Shown here piece by piece: positions 31,067 to 56,598 of a DNA stretch of 64,000 nt. Numbering within the stretch: position 1 is the stretch's first letter; each line of letters begins with the position of its first letter. Under the pieces are notes generated by a model that worked only from the letters and a program-made list of their open reading frames with translations, ran no database searches and had not been told where the DNA came from. The translations under genes and the position numbers were made by a program. Where the stretch lies: NCBI GenBank assembly GCA_019054805.1, contig JAHQIY010000004.1, forward strand, positions 6,324,001 through 6,388,000, written 5' to 3'. Origin of the DNA: Brachionus manjavacas. Taxonomy: Eukaryota > Rotifera > Eurotatoria > Ploima > Brachionidae.

Positions 31067-31651
31067 CTAAAAACCATGATATTGACACTGACATGAAATA
31101 TTTACCGGCATTAATATTGAAAAATAACCAGTATAGAAATTGTTATCTTTAAAAACGATTTGATCGGTCCATGAACTTTCTGTAAAACTTTGTTTGAAAA
31201 TTTCTATTAGTTCCATATCTCTAGTCCGTTCATAAATATCATGATTTATTTGATTTGGATTTAATCGCTTTAAACAATAAATTTTTACACTGCTCTGATG
31301 CACTTGCTTTATTTGGCAACAAGATACTACTTTTAGCTCATTTTGATTCTTCCAAATCATAGATTGACTCTTGCAAAAGCCTTGACACTCGGCAATATTG
31401 TATTGAATAGTTTGACAGTTAGGTCCAATTTTAATTTTGTATCTTTTTATGAACGGCCGGCAATAGGAGTCACTGGGTACGAAATAGTATTTTTCTTTGA
31501 TCGGTTCTTTTGTTTGTGCCTTTTTTAAGATGTCTGATAAATTCATGTAGGAGGACTTTTTATGATCACTTCTAATCCTACACTCCAAGTTATTAATGCA
31601 AAAGCTCAAAGTAATTAAAAAAAACAAAAATATGAAATTCTTTAAAGACAT
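31067..31651 (-). CDS. Secreted cystine-knot protein, GPA2/bursicon-like (A)
   Basis: A 194-residue single-exon frame. The N-terminal signal peptide is FIFLFFLITLSFCI. The C-terminal domain has the cysteine order of a CTCK hormone: SYC, then PNC, AECQGFC, SCC, KIYC and SCQC. Spacing matches the glycoprotein-hormone alpha family (GPA2: C, C, CxGxC, CC, C, CxC), apart from the last cysteine, which is absent because the protein ends soon after CQCQ. NIS is a potential N-glycosylation site. An insertion (DIYERTRDMELIEIFK) lengthens the last loop. Such proteins are dimeric secreted ligands for leucine-rich-repeat GPCRs. Whether this is GPA2, bursicon or a lineage-specific CTCK cannot be settled by eye. 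It is divergent from the related gene at 35143. Confidence 0.75.
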   Translation of the reverse strand: MSLKNFIFLFFLITLSFCINNLECRIRSDHKKSSYMNLSDILKKAQTKEPIKEKYYFVPSDSYCRPFIKRYKIKIGPNCQTIQYNIAECQGFCKSQSMIWKNQNELKVVSCCQIKQVHQSSVKIYCLKRLNPNQINHDIYERTRDMELIEIFKQSFTESSWTDQIVFKDNNFYTGYFSILMPVNISCQCQYHGF

Positions 31652-34600
31652 TCCAAATCTAAATAATTAAACAATTTTAATATGTGCTCTTTTTTTGATA
31701 ATTCTAACAAGGAAATAATTTCACAGTTTTAACTTCCTGCTACAATTCATGATAAAAAAAATTAATTTGAATTCTAAACGCCAACTACTATTTTGGCACA
31801 AAAATAAAATTAAAATTGGAATTTTGATTATTATGGACTTGCTGAAGAATACGCTTATAGCATGAGACTTAAATTCCCTGTTTGAACAGACTAGAGTTGA
31901 AAAAGTAAAAAAAAAACAAGTAATTTTGAAATCACTTAGAATTTTATATATTTTTTTTTAAATTGGAAAAAATTATTTAATAATGATTTCTTATCAGTCA
32001 GTAAATTAATGATGTTATGATTTTTATAAATATGAAAATTCGACAACTAATTGAACCATGTAAAATTTGAAATTGAGGAATTAATAAGTTCCTTGCTTCA
32101 CTTTACTCGAGCTAATCCTAAATATGCTCACGTACATAAAGCACTACTGTCTCTTGTTTTGTAGATTAGAGATTATAAAAATCTAATTCGTATTAGATGT
32201 GGGAAGAAGTTTATTTGTTTCATTTGGGTAGGTACCACAATAGATACCATATAATAGCGGAATTATTTTAATAAAAAAATTCATCATTTAGCCAAATATG
32301 CAGTTAATATTGATTTTAAATTTAATTTAAATGGGTGCTAAAAATGAGTTTCAATTTGAACTTTTTAGCACTTTAATGCCTTGATAAAAAAGATCTTGAA
32401 TAAGAACAATATAATGAACTAATTTATTTTCACATTCTATATTTTAATTGTTTTTTTTCTGTTTTTTAACAAATGGAATTATTAAGGCACCCCAAGTGAA
32501 TTCTTCAATCTACTTAGTTAATTGTTCAATTGACAGATATATATTTAGCATAAAGTCATATTAAATAATGAACATATCTTGGGAAACTCTAACTCCATTT
32601 ATTCAATAACCCTATCTAATTCTACATTATATCTAATATCTAATTGTGTTAAGATAATGGATCACTGGGGACAAAATATTAATCTCTGACGTTTGCTGGA
32701 AAAATTTTAGAAATAAGTGAATGTTGGTTTTTGTTTTCAAGGGCTCGGAAAAACGTAAATCAAAAAATATCAACTTTTTTAAACCGATTTTAGATCAACG
32801 TTAATTATTTAGAAAAGGAAATGTTTGACTCAAAATTTCAAAAAAGCACTTTCTTTATTAATGACAAAACATTTCTTTTTTAATCAAGCTTTCATAAACA
32901 GTAAAATTCATTCATTTATGCTGTTTTAAAAAGATTAATTACGATGAATCACGTAAGTTGAAGTCTAATGACGTTATGTAATTCGTCAAGGTTCAATCCC
33001 ATAGCTCTGATCATCAAATTTAATTAAATTATAAATTAAAAGTTGAGATATTTTTCAAATTATTAGTAATACGAAATCATTATAAAGAGGAATTTTCAAC
33101 TAACAACAAAAGACGGAAATCTTTTGAGCATGATTAAATTATTTCTAATTTTTTAATTAAACAATTTTACGGCTTATTTACGTAAATTGCAAAATATTCG
33201 ATTAAACCTGTCCATAAAAGGGCTAAGTGATCGATAAGCTAGGTACAATGAGTCCGTTAATTATAAAAATATAAACTAAATATTGGCTTAAAAAATTTTA
33301 AAAAATTGAAATAAACCAAGATCAGCCTGGTCTCTAAACTTAAATAGAAAATTTTTTTTTAGATTAAAACATTAAAATTGTTAACCAAATAAAATTCAGG
33401 GACAAAATCGATAATTAATTTCAAAAAATTTTACCTTTAAATAAAGCAGTCGTTGACTAGATTTTTTATTTTAAAATTTTAGATTTTAGAAATCTAATTT
33501 GGATTATATCAGAAACAAATAATTTAAAAAGATAAACCAAAAATAAAATTTGGTGTTTAAAATTCTAGAATTTTGTTTTTAACTAAAATGATTATATGTA
33601 CTGCGATTTTAATTTACCTTTTTTTAAATTTAACCTAAAAATGAGCCTTAAACTTAAAATCTGTCTTAATACCATAAATAAGATTTTATGGATATAAGAG
33701 CCTCTGGTATCTTTTATTTTAATTCCTAAATGTAAAAATATATTATTAACTAAAGTATTAATATAAAATATTTTAATAACTTAATTAAAAATGTAAATAT
33801 TTAGATATAGAGCTAATTTTTATTTTTTATTTAAAAAAAAGTAATTATGTAATCTAATGTAATTCCGAATATCTTTAAAATCAATAATTAAAATAAAAAT
33901 GTAATAAACAACAAAATAAAGAATAAAGTCAAAAATTAATTTTGAATAATTTTTTTTAAATATTTAAAAAAATTAAAAAAAAATTATTATTAATTGTTTA
34001 TGTATACTAAAAATGATCGTGGTTTTAAGCAATTATTTAAATTATTTAAAATTTTTATTCATTTAATAACCTTTCATAGTTATAATCAAATAAATTAATT
34101 TTTCACACTATAGTCTTTATATAAGCATTTTTATGGTAATGATTTTTTGATGAGTCCTTTTTTGAAATATTTTATTTTTGAAAGAGTGTTTTTAGTCAAT
34201 CTTATCCTGAGCTATAGGAATAATTTGAAATATTTTTTTTTTAATTGCTTTTAATTTAAAAAACAATAAAACTTTTTTAATGGATATATGACGATAAATT
34301 CAATAAAAGCAGCTAAAAGCTTATTTCCTGTTTCCAGATCAGCTGTTTTCTATGTATATTATTTTTAAAATAAATATAAATTGAGACGAAGTATAATCTT
34401 TTTTTAAATCAAATCCTCTTTTAAAAAATGTATTTTTATGATATTTTCTTAATCAAACAACAATAATATTCTTTAAATTTAGTTTAGTGATTAAAATAAT
34501 AAAATACTTTTAATTGTTAATTCGGAACAAAGATAATAAATAATAGGCGTTTTTTGTAAATATTTATATATCAAATACAGATCAACAGGAATAAAAATTA

Positions 34601-35142
34601 AATGTTTAGATTGGCGTTAATTTCCAATTAAAAAATTATTTATTTATGAAAAATAATATTTTGAAAAAAGTGTAACGAAAATCAGTGGACGACTTTTAGA
34701 AATTTACTTTCTGATCCTATTCAATCTAAATATAAAATTTGTGACGCCTAGTCAAAAAAAATTCCTGTTTTTTAAATATAATTAAATTTTGAAGAAAATT
34801 ATGTTTATTTACCGTGATAAAACCAGAGACATTTTAGGAGAATGTCTTTTTCTTTTGATGAACATATACGTAATTCAGATTTTCATAATTAGTGTTAAAA
34901 AGTCCTTTATTAAATTTTGACTGTACTTGGAGAACCTTTGGTTTTTTTGTTAAAAGATGATATTTATTTTATAGCTTTTCAAAATTAATGAGAAGCTTGA
35001 GCATAAATAAGATTGAATTTGTTTGACTTAAAATTATTAATTTTCCGTGCACAAGATTTTCAATTTAAATTCTATTGTTTTATTTAGATAGATTATTAAA
35101 AAATCGTAGAAGAAAAACGCCCAAAATTTTTATTTGAATAAA
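31652..35142. other. 3.5-kb gene-free spacer between two divergent cystine-knot genes
   Basis: AT-rich, presumably holding both promoters. At 32070-32230 there is a less AT-rich island whose plus frame reads EELISSLLHFTRANPKYAHV, probably a transposon scrap. No other coding signal or tRNA was recognised. Confidence 0.5.
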
Positions 35143-35823
35143 ATGTTTTATTCAGTAAACATTAATTTTATTTGTATAATGGCCACCTTGATTACATTGC
35201 ACCGGTTCAGTTGTTATAGAATAAGCAAAAAAATGTTACAATCTATACAAACTAACAACAACGATCAAGAAAGATCTCAAAGTCACTTGGTATTTCCGTT
35301 CAAAAATGTCCAAAAATCTAGATATAAGCATAGAGAATTTTTTTACGATGTATATAAGAGAAGCTTAGACGACTTCAAAAGTGACCAGAAGGAGATTGAC
35401 CAGAAAAATGAAGAAAATAACAATAATAATAGCAATAAAAAATATTTACAAAAAATACTTGAAGATAATGAAGAGGACGAGTCAAATGCGGCAAATATTA
35501 ACTCCGAAATGCCATATGGTTATGTCCCATGGGGCCATTGCAATTTAGAAACAATGGAAGTTTCGCTCAATTTGGAAAAATGTGGTAGAATTACATTTAA
35601 TACCACCGCATGCAGTGGATTCTGTAAATCAAATGAGCAAATAATAACTAATACGAAAATGAAGAAAAGATCTTGCTGGGCTTGTAAACCGTACAAGTTT
35701 GTTAATATCAAATATGAGATTAGATGCATTGATAATTCTAAGTCGGTTTTTAATCTAAGAGCTATCAGTGCATGTAGCTGCTTTAAGCATTCCGATATGA
35801 TTGTGCCTTTGGGATCGAAATAA
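35143..35823 (+). CDS. Secreted cystine-knot protein, bursicon/GPA2-like (B)
   Basis: An in-frame TTG precedes the first ATG at 35143, which gives 226 residues. A hydrophobic N-terminus (INFICIMATLITL) serves as signal peptide. A long hydrophilic, Asn/Glu-rich spacer (about residues 30-120) contains dibasic sites (YKRSLDD, SNKKYLQ) and looks like a propeptide. The C-terminal cystine knot is GHC, EKC, ACSGFC, SCWAC, IRC and ACSCF. The N-glycosylation site NTT lies immediately before ACSGFC. CWAC occupies the place of CxCC in bursicon, with the middle cysteine missing. ACSGFCKS and the overall spacing match gene A (AECQGFCKS), so the two look like diverged paralogues or partners. Single coding exon; receptor unknown. 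Confidence 0.75.
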   Translation: MFYSVNINFICIMATLITLHRFSCYRISKKMLQSIQTNNNDQERSQSHLVFPFKNVQKSRYKHREFFYDVYKRSLDDFKSDQKEIDQKNEENNNNNSNKKYLQKILEDNEEDESNAANINSEMPYGYVPWGHCNLETMEVSLNLEKCGRITFNTTACSGFCKSNEQIITNTKMKKRSCWACKPYKFVNIKYEIRCIDNSKSVFNLRAISACSCFKHSDMIVPLGSK

Positions 35824-38535: not shown

Positions 38536-38938
38536 AAAGTTAAAAATTAAATATTTTAAAATATATTATTTGAATAAATAATCTAATTTAAAAATAAGAT
38601 AATTTTATAAAAATCACATCATCGATTTTCAAATTTGCACAACAACCTGCATGATAAGACTAATTACTTCTCTTTTTTTTGTTCAATGATTACACTCTTT
38701 AAGACGCTTTAAAAAAAAAAAGCTTTAAAAGCAAAATTTGAGTATTGATATTCAAAATGCAGCACTAGATTTAAAAATTGAATTTCGTAAAAAAATAAAC
38801 AAATCAACAAAATAACTTGGTAAAATAAATTCCATTAGATTCAGGAAAATATGTATCTTATTTTATATTGCACCAAGACAATGTCCCTAAGCAAAAATTA
38901 GAACTTTGTAAGCAATTTTTAATGAGAAACAATATGTA

Positions 38939-39898
38939 GTGATACCAAGGTTGGACAGTTTATATGCATGTTTTGGGATTCCGTCAGTGATAAGGACGGA
39001 CAATGGTCCACCATTTAATGATAAAAAATTTAAGTTGTATTGTAGAGCAATGGGTATTCATCATAGGAAAATAACTCCCCTTTGGCCAAGAGCAAATGGC
39101 AAGTGTGAGAGATTCATGCGCAATTTAAGAAAGCTAGTGACTGGCTCGAGGATGCAAGGGAAGAATTGGAAGTCAGAAATAAACTCTTTTATAAGAGCCT
39201 ATAATTCTACTCCACACTGTTCCACAAATTATGCTCCAGCAAAGCTGATGTTTAATAAGACAAACTTAACTAAATTGCCAAAATCAATTGATAAGGTCAC
39301 TAATTGGAACGAAAATATTGCGAAAGCGGTATACTTCAATCATGAGAGAATTAGAAAGATTAATTCAGAGACGCTAACGAAGCGTCAGCCAGTGAGTCTA
39401 AAAATTGGTGATTGGGTTGCATTGAGACAAGAAAAGAATAACAAGTTTTCAACTCCGTTTGAGCACTCGCTGTATCGTGTGATCCAAGTGAAAGGGACGA
39501 TGGTTACTGCTAGAAATGATAATCGGGTGATCACGAGAAACATCACATTTTTTAGGCGAGTAATAGTTGGAAATGTAAATGACGTGGTACAGCAGGCTAG
39601 CACAAAGTACTTAGTTTCAGATAAGGCAAAGGCTCTTCCAGAACTAAGGCTTTTGGAAAACAGCTTGGGTGAGAATCTGGAGCAGGATCATGCTGAGGAG
39701 TTTGACCCACCTGGAAATAGTGCGAGTCAGAACAATTTGTCATCATTAGACTCAAGTGTTGGAGATGAAAATGATTTAGAGTCAGCAAAGACAAGCAAGG
39801 TCCAAAGACAATCAAGAGCTTGTAAAGTCAAAGCCAATTACAAAGAGACGAGAGACTATAAAAAAAGGTCTGATAAAACTTATCTCTATTTTTCTTAA
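38939..39898 (+). mobile_element. Ty3/gypsy-type retrotransposon integrase, 5'-truncated
   Basis: A 319-codon frame entered through GTG, with no real start; an in-frame stop at about 38936 breaks it from upstream pol. It holds the second half of the rve integrase core: the second catalytic Asp in VIRTDNGPPF and the Glu in ANGKCERF. NSTPHCSTNYAPAKLMF and a C-terminal SH3-like segment (LKIGDWVALRQ..YRVIQVKG) follow, then a basic tail. The region with the first catalytic Asp, RT, RNase H and gag is absent. Base composition is less AT-rich than the surroundings, consistent with a fairly recent insertion. The class resembles K02A2.6-like Ty3 elements of invertebrates. Confidence 0.88.
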
Positions 39899-53265: not shown

Positions 53266-54472
53266 TTCATTGAATTATTTTGTCTAATTTTTTTGCAAAA
53301 TTTTTATTTAGAAATATTTATATCAAAATTGTCTGAAAATTTAATATAGTTTTTTAACTATAGCAAGTTTTTTTTATATTTACGATTGCATCAGTAAATA
53401 TCAAAACTTACTTAGTAAAATTTGATAATAAGAAAAAATGAATATTTTTTTCAAGATTTACTAATGGATCAGTTTATTTTGACATTTACATTTTATCAGA
53501 ATTTACTATTACATATAAGAGACTTGAATTTTTATTTTTAAATTAGGTTTTATCTTTCAAAAGTATTTTATAAAAGATATATATAAAAGATGTTTGATAA
53601 TGTTGGCTTTGAAATTAAAAAATTGAATATCGCAATTAATTCAAATATTAATTGCAAGATACAAGTTCCAGGTATTTAAGAATTTAAAGAATTATCTAGT
53701 TTACCAATTATTGGTTTTTTAAAGTACACTGTTTAGTGCAATATCAACCAGGCCGGTGTGTTTCAAATTTTAATTATTTTGATATTTTCGTATAAATGTT
53801 AGAAAATCTAACTAAAATTGTGAACACATCAATTAAAAACAAAATTAATGGAATTTTTGAACATTTCTTTTATGATTAGTAAGGAAGTCCATTTATAATA
53901 TTTTTGATTTCATTGTTCTTCAAATTCATCCTTTACTCAAAAGGTTTAATTTCTCCATATTTGTAAGAATTTGGTGTAAGGTTTTTTACTTAAATAAAAA
54001 AATCTATTATTAGGTAGTTAATTATGAGGAAATAGTTTTTTGAAAACACAAGTTTCAAATAAAAGGAAATATTAGCTTCATGTATATCAATATAATTAAC
54101 TTTTTAACTAAAATAGCTTAAAAATTAGAAATTAACTAGGCGCTTTTTTTATAAAATTAAAAAATATTATCGTGATGACTTAAATTATTGAAAAATAATA
54201 ATCAATGCTATTAGGAAATAACAATCATGCACACATATTCTCCTAGATTCCACTTTAATACAATAAATGGTTGGATATTATCCTCGAGGCGGATGCTTGT
54301 ATATTAATTGATAAACCGTCACTTATTTAAAAGAGAAGCATCGTTTCAATCGAAACAACGGAAGTTGATAACAATACACCTTAGCAATCTTTTAATCATA
54401 TAAATATGTCTTTTATTTTTAAAAATTTCAATTTCGATTTTATAGAGATTTTTGAAAATTAAAGTGAAAAAA
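53266..54472. other. Intergenic upstream of the neuropeptide gene
   Basis: AT-rich. A TATA-like CATATAAATA sits at about 54398, roughly 75 bp before the start codon, and could be the neuropeptide-gene promoter. Nothing else was recognised. Confidence 0.45.
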
Positions 54473-54952
54473 ATGAAAAGTTTGATAGGTCTTTCAGTAA
54501 TATGTTTATCAGCGTTGATTTTATCAACATATATTCAAAAAAGTGAATGTAGTCCACAGCTAACATTCTCAAGCGATTGGAGTGGTGGTAAACGAGAATT
54601 GGAAAAATCCAAAAAAACAAATTTCGATACAATTAAATCAAGCGGTTTGTTTTTTTTTATTAAATAGATTTTTTGTTTTATTCAAAAATAAACTTATTTA
54701 AAAATTAGAAAAAAGTGAGAATGAGAATTTGGACAAAAGAGCGCCAGGATGGGGAAAAAGAGCTCCTGGATGGGGGAAAAGAAACCTTATGGACGAGACT
54801 AAGATTGATGAAATAATCTCAAGGATAAAAGATTATGAAGTATTTTTGAATTTAAAAGTTAAAAATATCTAATTCAATTATTTTCAAAGGATAAAGCGAC
54901 TGAATTGAGAAATTTTTTGTTTCAATTGATTGAAATGCATAAGAACTATTAG
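54473..54952 (+). CDS. Neuropeptide precursor encoding an AKH-type peptide and two APGWamides
   Basis: Three exons, 54473-54644, 54709-54839 and 54890-54952, with canonical GT..AG introns of 64 and 50 nt and consistent phases; 121 residues. A signal peptide (LIGLSVICLSALILSTY) is followed directly by SP and then QLTFSSDWSGGKR (residues 29-41). This is an adipokinetic/red-pigment-concentrating-hormone-type peptide with an amidation Gly and dibasic site, predicted product pGlu-LTFSSDWSG-amide. Exon 2 carries KR-APGWGKR-APGWGKR (residues 67-82), two tandem APGWamide units. The tail is a helical, acidic and cysteine-free C-peptide. The residue before the peptide Gln is Pro, poor for signal peptidase, so cleavage after EC and removal of Ser-Pro by a dipeptidyl peptidase is a possible route (inference). 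The ATG at 54473 was chosen over the upstream TTG. Expected to be neuroendocrine and secreted. Confidence 0.88.
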
Positions 54953-55394
54953 ACATGTACAAAATTTTACTAAATTAAGTTCTTTTTGATTTAAGAATAA
55001 ATTTTGTTTTTTTTATTTTAATTCTAAATAATAATATCAATAAACAGATTTGGTATATTGGCAATATTATTTTTTTTTTATTATTAAAATAAAATATTTC
55101 ATCAAATTTTTTTTTCAAATCCAGACTTTTCTTAAACAAAAATTTGCAATAAAGACTTCTTATGTTTATTTGATAATTCATTTGGTTGAATGCAAGACTT
55201 GTTGAAAAATTTCAAAATTAAAAAAAAGACTGGTTAGCATACATACATTAAAAATTCTATAAATTTGAATACTAAACAAATTTTCATTTTTGCTATGTTC
55301 ATTATTTTAAAAATAAATTTCGCTACCAAAAACTTAATTAAATATTCTTTTAGTTTAATAGAGAGTGATTTTAGACAAAAAAGAAAATTTAAAA
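54953..55394. other. Short intergenic region
   Basis: AT-rich 3' flank of the neuropeptide gene and promoter region of PSMD4; no element assigned. Confidence 0.5.
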
Positions 55395-56598
55395 ATGGTT
55401 CTCGAAAGTACAATGATTTGGTGAGTGTTTGATTTGTTTCTAAAAGTGAAAAAAATATATTTTTGTTGTTAGTGTCGACAATAGTGATTATATGAGAAAT
55501 GCTGATTTTGTCCCGTCAAGAATGCAATCTCAATTCGATGCTGTAAATATGGTCACTCGAGCTAAAATTCGATCACATCCAGAAAACAACGTAGGAATTT
55601 TGTCAATGGCCGACAATCGTGTTTTAGTAACTCTAACTGCTGATACTGGTAAAATAATGTCCAAATTACACCAATGCAAACCAAACGGTGCCATTGATCT
55701 GGTTCGTGGCATTAAAGTTGCAAATTTAGCACTTAAACATCGCCAAAGTAAAAATCATAAGCCCAGAATCGTTATATTTGTTGCCAGCCCAGTAAAACTT
55801 GACCATTCTGAATTCACAAAATTAGCCAAAAGATTAAAAAAAGAAAAAGTCAATGTGGATATTGTAAATTTTGGCGAAGAAGAGTCCAACAACGCAATAC
55901 TTAGCGAGTTCATTAATATTCTTAATGGAAAAGAGGGTACTTCTAGCCATTTGGTTTCGATTTCGGCGCCTTCAAGTCTAAGCGATGCTCTTCTAAGCTC
56001 GCCAATGTTCCAAGGTGAAGACAGTGGAATGCCTTCTGGATTCGGTGGTGATTTACAATACGGCATGGAAGATGATCCAGAGCTGGCTATGGCTTTAAGA
56101 ATTTCAATGGAAGAAAGCAGAATGAGACAGGAATCGGATTCCAAAAAACCGTCTGAAAAGATGGAAACTGATACTACTCAGCAACCAGGCGAAGAAGATT
56201 TGCTTCAACAAGCTCTCGCTTTAAGTTTGTCGCAACAAGATGACAAAAATAAAGTACCTGATTTCGGCTCTATGACCGAAGAAGAACAATTAAATTATGC
56301 TCTTCAAATGAGTATGTCTTCATCTGCTGGGCCCTCTACTTCAAATGCGGCTGGCGATAAACCTACACCGGTAGATACCGAGATGAAAGTTGTAATTTAA
56401 ATTGTAAAATTTAATCAATATAAATTTCTATCTTTTTTTTAGGATGAAGAAGACTATGACAAAGCTATGAATGATCCAGAGTTTTTGCAAAGAGTAATAT
56501 CATCATTACCCGGTGTTGATCCAAATTCTGAGGCTGTTCGATCGGCATTTGAAAATTTAAAACAAGACAAAAGCAAAGATAAGGAAGAAAAAAAATAA
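55395..56598 (+). CDS. PSMD4: 26S proteasome ubiquitin receptor Rpn10
   Basis: Exons 55395-55420, 55473-56391 and 56443-56598; 366 residues (human 377). The tiny first exon encodes MVLESTMI. The vWA domain (CVDNSDYMRNADFVPSRMQS, GILSMAD, FVASPVK) docks on the proteasome regulatory particle. Three ubiquitin-interacting motifs follow: DPELAMALRISMEE (about 210), EEDLLQQALALSLSQ (about 250) and EEEQLNYALQMSMSS (about 278). The middle one is present in insect Rpn10 but not in the human protein. The conserved end DPEFLQRVISSLPGVDPNSE and a Lys-rich tail complete the gene. The second intron could start at 56389 (GTTGTA) or 56392 (GTAATT); the latter is the better donor, and both keep frame. Polyadenylation signal AATAAA at 56745. 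Confidence 0.96.

Follow-up and report, generated by a model that had tools for sequence, protein, structure and literature searches.

The 64,000-nucleotide stretch of the Brachionus manjavacas genome analysed here (the window; contig 4, positions 6324001-6388000) carries on its forward strand, at 54473-54952, a three-exon gene whose single spliced frame holds both a peptide of the adipokinetic hormone (AKH) type and two tandem APGWamides. The spliced frame of 366 nucleotides, including the stop, has 0 internal stops and translates to a precursor of 121 amino acids (MKSLIGLSVICLSALILSTYIQKSECSPQLTFSSDWSGGKRELEKSKKTNFDTIKSSEKSENENLDKRAPGWGKRAPGWGKRNLMDETKIDEIISRIKDYEDKATELRNFLFQLIEMHKNY), whose only cysteines, at residues 11 and 26, both lie within the signal peptide. 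An initial annotation, made from the sequence, had assigned the DNA to a rotifer and proposed one precursor for the two peptide types, spread over three exons with frame-keeping junctions and canonical splice sites. All of this holds: the coordinates proved exact, both introns are GT-AG, and the 121-residue open reading frame (ORF) has Brachionus relatives along its whole length. The features of the gene are collected in Table 1.

Table 1. Features of the combined AKH/APGWamide precursor gene, in window coordinates
Feature	Position	Strand	Description and basis
Exon 1	54473..54644	+	ATG at 54473; encodes the signal peptide, the X-Pro dipeptide, the AKH-type decapeptide plus GKR and the first part of the linker; from spliced ORF, GT donor and relatives P0001/P0002
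Signal peptide, residues 1-26	54473..54550	+	Cut predicted between SEC and SP by scripted -3/-1 rule
Ser-Pro dipeptide linking signal peptide to hormone	54551..54556	+	Proposed DPP-IV-type trimming unit; X-Pro in 12/12 non-KPGW members
QLTFSSDWSG-GKR (QLTFSSDWSGGKR), AKH/ACP-type decapeptide	54557..54595	+	Predicted pGlu-LTFSSDWSG-amide; PF06377 above cut-off, sole pattern match in genome
Intron 1, 64 nucleotides, phase 1	54645..54708	+	GT-AG (GTTTGT...TTAG)
Exon 2	54709..54839	+	Further linker sequence, both APGWGKR units, beginning of the C-terminal region
APGWGKR copy 1	54741..54761	+	Exact pattern match
APGWGKR copy 2	54762..54782	+	Exact pattern match
Intron 2, 50 nucleotides, phase 0	54840..54889	+	GT-AG (GTATTT...AAAG)
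Exon 3, C-terminal tail DKATELRNFLFQLIEMHKNY and TAG stop	54890..54952	+	No cysteines; tail kept in P0001 and P0002
AATAAA, candidate polyadenylation signal	54996..55001	+	Starts 44 nucleotides past the stop; read from sequence

The occurrence of these motifs at 54473-54952 is beyond chance. In the 114-Mb genome (61 contigs), which was the search space for all genome-wide scans, a DNA pattern for Q-x-x-F-S/T-x-x-W-x-G-G matches once, in this gene, and a pattern for APGWGK(R/S) matches twice, both times within it, while the reversed control of each pattern gives 0 matches. The Pfam model Adipokin_hormo (PF06377) scores the spliced protein at 28.4 bits (cut-off 22.9), the match beginning at profile position 1; in the genome-wide scan the same gene stands at 23.4 bits (E 0.011), just over that cut-off. 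Neither PF06377, run at E <= 10, nor the AKH-layout pattern found a second AKH gene in the genome. The search for a separate APGWamide gene, which covered the amidation site GWGK(R/S) and left out the GKK, GRR and GRK variants, gave 10 matches in the genome, where the reversed control gave 7; two of these lie inside the precursor gene, and the other eight (three GWGKR and five GWGKS) were rejected as single occurrences with no precursor-like frame in their near flanks. Candidates for corazonin were likewise discarded: the pattern QTFQY has 25 genome matches against 21 for the reversed control, with 0 of the 25 continuing as S-x-G-W, and a looser pattern for corazonin and gonadotropin-releasing hormone (GnRH) has three matches against five, two of them broken by a stop within the motif and the third (QMFRFTFGWEKR) lacking the corazonin layout. 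The hunt for paralogues consisted of exact patterns and one Pfam model, and a diverged corazonin gene may be present elsewhere in the genome.

The arrangement is conserved well beyond the window. A search with a five-member alignment as the query retrieved 83 database proteins at E <= 1 (numbered here with a P), and an AKH-type motif occurs together with PGWamide-type units in 14 of them. Thirteen were identified by regular expression (the AKH motif plus xxGWG[KR][KR]) and one, P0066, was read by eye as QLVYASDWSGGRR followed by two APGW. Both P0001 (B. plicatilis, BpHYR1_030954; 88% identity) and P0002 (B. calyciflorus; 52% identity) align with the window precursor over 100% of its length, covering both splice junctions. 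B. plicatilis and B. calyciflorus are the only named organisms among the combined proteins (2 of 14), and the other 12 probably come from rotifers also; no bdelloid name appears among the 83 proteins, which does not establish absence from bdelloids. Among the remaining proteins, 62 contain xxGWG[KR][KR] alone (63 by regular expression, minus P0066), including named APGWamide or cerebral peptide precursors of molluscs, two (P0075 and P0080) contain the AKH part alone, and five contain neither motif.

It might be supposed that two adjacent genes, or the products of an assembly artefact, were fused here by a false gene model, but one independent protein from B. plicatilis shows the same order, and so do B. 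calyciflorus and 12 further sequences, of which several seem to be single ORFs on short contigs. We consider this explanation extremely improbable. In P0012, P0057, P0059 and P0066 the AKH and PGWamide parts lie within one ORF, so that the linkage in those lineages requires no assumption about splicing; the tails of these four proteins resemble translated intron sequence, from an intron lying at about the place of intron 2. Alternatively, intron 1 might often be retained, or the transcript alternatively ended, so as to give AKH-only as well as combined precursors and thereby a regulated peptide ratio. A transcript retaining intron 1 would indeed meet an in-frame stop soon past the AKH part (ORF 54446-54667), and P0075 and P0080, ORFs with the AKH part alone, have just this read-through shape. 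These two, however, look like genomic exon 1 read into intron 1 rather than isoforms, and several relatives carry AKH and PGWamides in one ORF with no break at intron 1, which leaves regulated retention unlikely.

The AKH-type peptide is uniform in its dimensions: each of the 17 examined (from the window precursor and 16 proteins) has ten residues, with GKR or GRR behind it. The W-amides are more varied, comprising APGW, SPGW, KPGW, RPGW, TPGW, RAGW and APAW across the members, and those members with KPGW have one W-amide copy. One further protein, P0088, resembles P0057 and P0059 in its signal peptide and has four W-amides (RPGW, SPGW and two APAW), with the AKH part degenerate or lost. This variation, the single copies of the KPGW members and the retention of W-amides in P0088 would suit a precursor in which one peptide type alone is still a working signal and the other a relic; yet both the core of the decapeptide and the W-G-K-R units are invariant in the five-member alignment, and we think it quite unlikely that either type has lost its function. 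A separate case is P0107 (E 0.35), which contains multiple NFSPGW-, NFSPAW- and NFSPSW-amides in a tandem that resembles red pigment-concentrating hormone but has no N-terminal Gln, and which matches PF06377 with 53.6 bits over four stretches; it may represent a second type of AKH/PGWamide intermediate.

By the -3/-1 rule, Pro at position -1 should not be tolerated by signal peptidase. Pro nevertheless stands at -1 of the hormone's Gln in the window precursor and in P0001, P0002, P0004, P0012, P0057, P0059, P0066, P0067, P0069, P0075 and P0080, and because of this residue the hormone probably does not lie directly behind the signal peptide, as the initial annotation had it; a Ser-Pro (X-Pro) dipeptide appears to intervene. 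Stepping back from the Gln by X-Pro dipeptides reaches a site compatible with the -3/-1 rule in all 12 members without KPGW (the window precursor and 11 relatives), so that uninterrupted X-Pro dipeptides fill the space between the signal-peptidase site and the mature N-terminus: one step in eight members and two in four (SPDP, NPDP, NPEP and SPSP), with the dipeptide register kept. By comparison, none of the five KPGW members has an X-Pro step, and a compatible site lies directly before the Gln. The rule as coded (A, G, S, C or T at -1; A, G, S, C, T, V, I or L at -3) is permissive, and single spacer cases therefore prove little; it is the consistent register that carries the argument.

The X-Pro pattern suggests stepwise trimming by an enzyme of the dipeptidyl peptidase IV (DPP-IV) type. 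Leviev and Grimmelikhuijzen reportedly proposed dipeptidyl aminopeptidase processing in 1995 for a cnidarian precursor with dipeptide units before the mature peptide. The window precursor is similar in having dipeptide units ahead of its mature peptide, and differs in that the cnidarian precursors are multi-copy. Such N-terminal processing is said to be absent from Bilateria (PMC9545775), a statement to which the X-Pro spacer would be an exception, and no description of dipeptide trimming for AKH was found in the accessible portions of the open-licence PMC literature.

The initial annotation knew of no described precursor of this type, a claim overtaken by a 2023 paper that describes an "APGW/AKH precursor" of Brachionus plicatilis (RNA39930.1; PMC10730642), and the core pairing is on that account already in print. 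The two genes belong to the same genus and share an AKH-type decapeptide followed by APGWamide copies. They differ in that the introduction of that paper gives the B. plicatilis gene as intron-less with three copies, whereas two introns interrupt the window gene and its copies number two; the B. plicatilis protein P0001, which may or may not correspond to RNA39930.1, also has two copies. In the main text of PMC10730642 "calyciflorus" and "dipeptid" each occur 0 times and "receptor" is used 7 times. What this analysis adds to that paper is the pairing in 14 database proteins, the X-Pro spacers, two candidate receptors and the two introns.

Compared with the AKH precursors of insects and molluscs and those of the AKH/corazonin-related peptide (ACP), the window precursor has the same single N-terminal hormone, with Gln-1, the aromatic residue Phe-4, Trp-8, a length within 8-10 residues, a predicted amidation signal and a PF06377 match above cut-off, and its downstream phase-0 intron is as reported for AKH genes in PMC5024129. 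It is unlike them in the two APGWamides behind the hormone and the X-Pro spacer before it, and also in having no cysteine past the signal peptide, where a figure legend of the same source places a cysteine pair in the C-terminal part of AKH/ACP precursors. The tandem APGWGKR units resemble those of the APGWamide/RGWamide precursors of molluscs, annelids and nemerteans, and the first residue of the W-amides across the combined members (A, R, K, T or S) is as in the APGW precursors among the 83 proteins. Those precursors have two C-terminal cysteines split by a phase-0 intron, according to PMC8557429; the window gene has the C-terminal phase-0 intron but no cysteine pair, and departs from them further in the AKH-type hormone ahead of the units and in having two copies only. 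PF06377 also touches 14 of 44 hand-picked APGW/RGW precursors at E <= 1. In P0049, the one member for which the position of the match was given, it covers 117-130, a PGWGKR stretch and not the C-terminal region. We accordingly dropped the PF06377 matches in APGW precursors, and with them a C-terminal domain shared by AKH and APGWamide precursors, as evidence of common ancestry. With a predicted signal peptide, one AKH-type peptide at a dibasic amidation site and then APGWamides, all in one ORF, the window gene is by its sequence features a member of the combined APGW/AKH type and not an ordinary AKH or APGWamide precursor.

The gene is most likely the Brachionus orthologue of this combined AKH/PGWamide precursor and a bifunctional prohormone, and the phrase "bifunctional hormone gene" in the initial annotation is likely apt. 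If, as we infer, it is expressed, the signal peptide would be cut off between SEC and SP, prohormone convertases would cleave the four Lys-Arg sites, and each exposed Gly would be converted to a C-terminal amide. The leading Ser-Pro would be taken off by a DPP-IV-type dipeptidyl peptidase and the Gln so exposed would cyclise to pyroglutamate (pGlu). Each precursor would then yield one pGlu-LTFSSDWSG-amide and two APGW-amides, released by the same cells at a fixed 1:2 ratio, and the decapeptide would act on one of two receptors of the GnRH/AKH superfamily, R1 or R2, with APGW-amide acting on a separate receptor.

Families to which such enzymes and receptors belong are present in the genome. DPPIV_N has four matches at two loci: an exon at one is closest in PDB to dipeptidyl peptidase 4, reading DWLYEEEIF where the best solved chain has DWVYEEEIF, with the Tyr-Glu-Glu-Glu stretch kept, and the second locus holds the serine motif GWSYGG. 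Matches to Cu2_monooxygen and P_proprotein are also present, and DPP-IV, PAM and PC2 are candidates at the family level. A search with a human GnRH receptor sequence gave 35 genome places at E <= 0.1. The best match, R1 (contig 2; 360 amino acids from four joined exons), is 94% identical to "Gonadotropin-releasing hormone II receptor [Brachionus plicatilis]"; after further rotifer and unassigned proteins, its next matches come from insects and bivalves and carry the name of GnRH or ACP receptor (37-41%), among them two insect proteins named ACP receptor (40-41%). R2 (contig 19; 443 amino acids from three exons), in a comparison limited to R1, the human receptor and the 28 proteins that R1 retrieved, is best against the same insect and bivalve proteins (30-41%). 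In a tree of 18 rows R1 groups with P0013 (B. plicatilis), P0014 (B. calyciflorus), P0015 and P0018 (Proales) with support 100/100, its relation to the insect proteins being unsettled amid long branches. We take R1 and R2 as candidate GnRH/AKH-superfamily receptors.

Several points weigh against the proposed scheme. The dipeptidyl peptidase step is drawn from a sequence pattern and a cleavage rule, and the product may be a SPQLTFSSDWSG-amide with an extended N-terminus. For the DPP4-like exon, the best DPP4 chain leads those of DPP6, FAP and DPP10 by only about 4 to 10 bits, a neighbouring match at that locus has three stops in frame (introns or decay), and DPPIV_N, Cu2_monooxygen and P_proprotein all have other members. 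The placement of R2 is unsupported (85/52) in a tree that contained no corazonin receptor references. PF06377 is likewise weak in some relatives, with 17.7 bits in P0004, 18.0 in P0012 and 22.7 in P0080, all under the 22.9 cut-off, and no match in P0066.

Elsewhere in the window, the downstream neighbour at 55450-56400 (+) has VWA and ubiquitin-interaction motifs and is presumably most like the proteasome subunit Rpn10/PSMD4. A cystine-knot protein at 35110-35823 (+) is above cut-off for Cys_knot and DAN, with a weak Cys_knot match, below cut-off, near it at 31067-31666 (-); the two are possibly secreted hormones or BMP antagonists. An integrase-core ORF at 38912-39898 (+), with rve and rve_3 matches below cut-off, belongs to a probable retroelement.

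As to origin, one might speculate that the combined gene is an old undivided state from which the separate AKH and APGWamide/RGWamide genes of other protostomes descend, and that in rotifers it survives as the sole source of either peptide, together with an N-terminal dipeptide trimming later lost in AKH genes. We regard this as a doubtful proposition. As for the "evolutionary bridge" raised in the initial annotation, the evidence fits an ancestral combined gene, a fusion, or PGWamide copies arising inside an AKH gene alike, and the lack of a second locus for either motif in our genome scans would be expected of an undivided ancestor and equally of a fusion by which two genes were replaced. 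A 2016 report (PMC5024129) found neither AKH nor AKH receptors in rotifers, a statement that the AKH-type gene described here, with the candidates R1 and R2, counters. AKH and APGWamide have been treated as separate hormone systems, and here they share one gene, in an arrangement conserved across further sequences. A shared origin of the two families thereby becomes testable, as does the co-release of an AKH-type hormone with APGWamide as a rotifer strategy.
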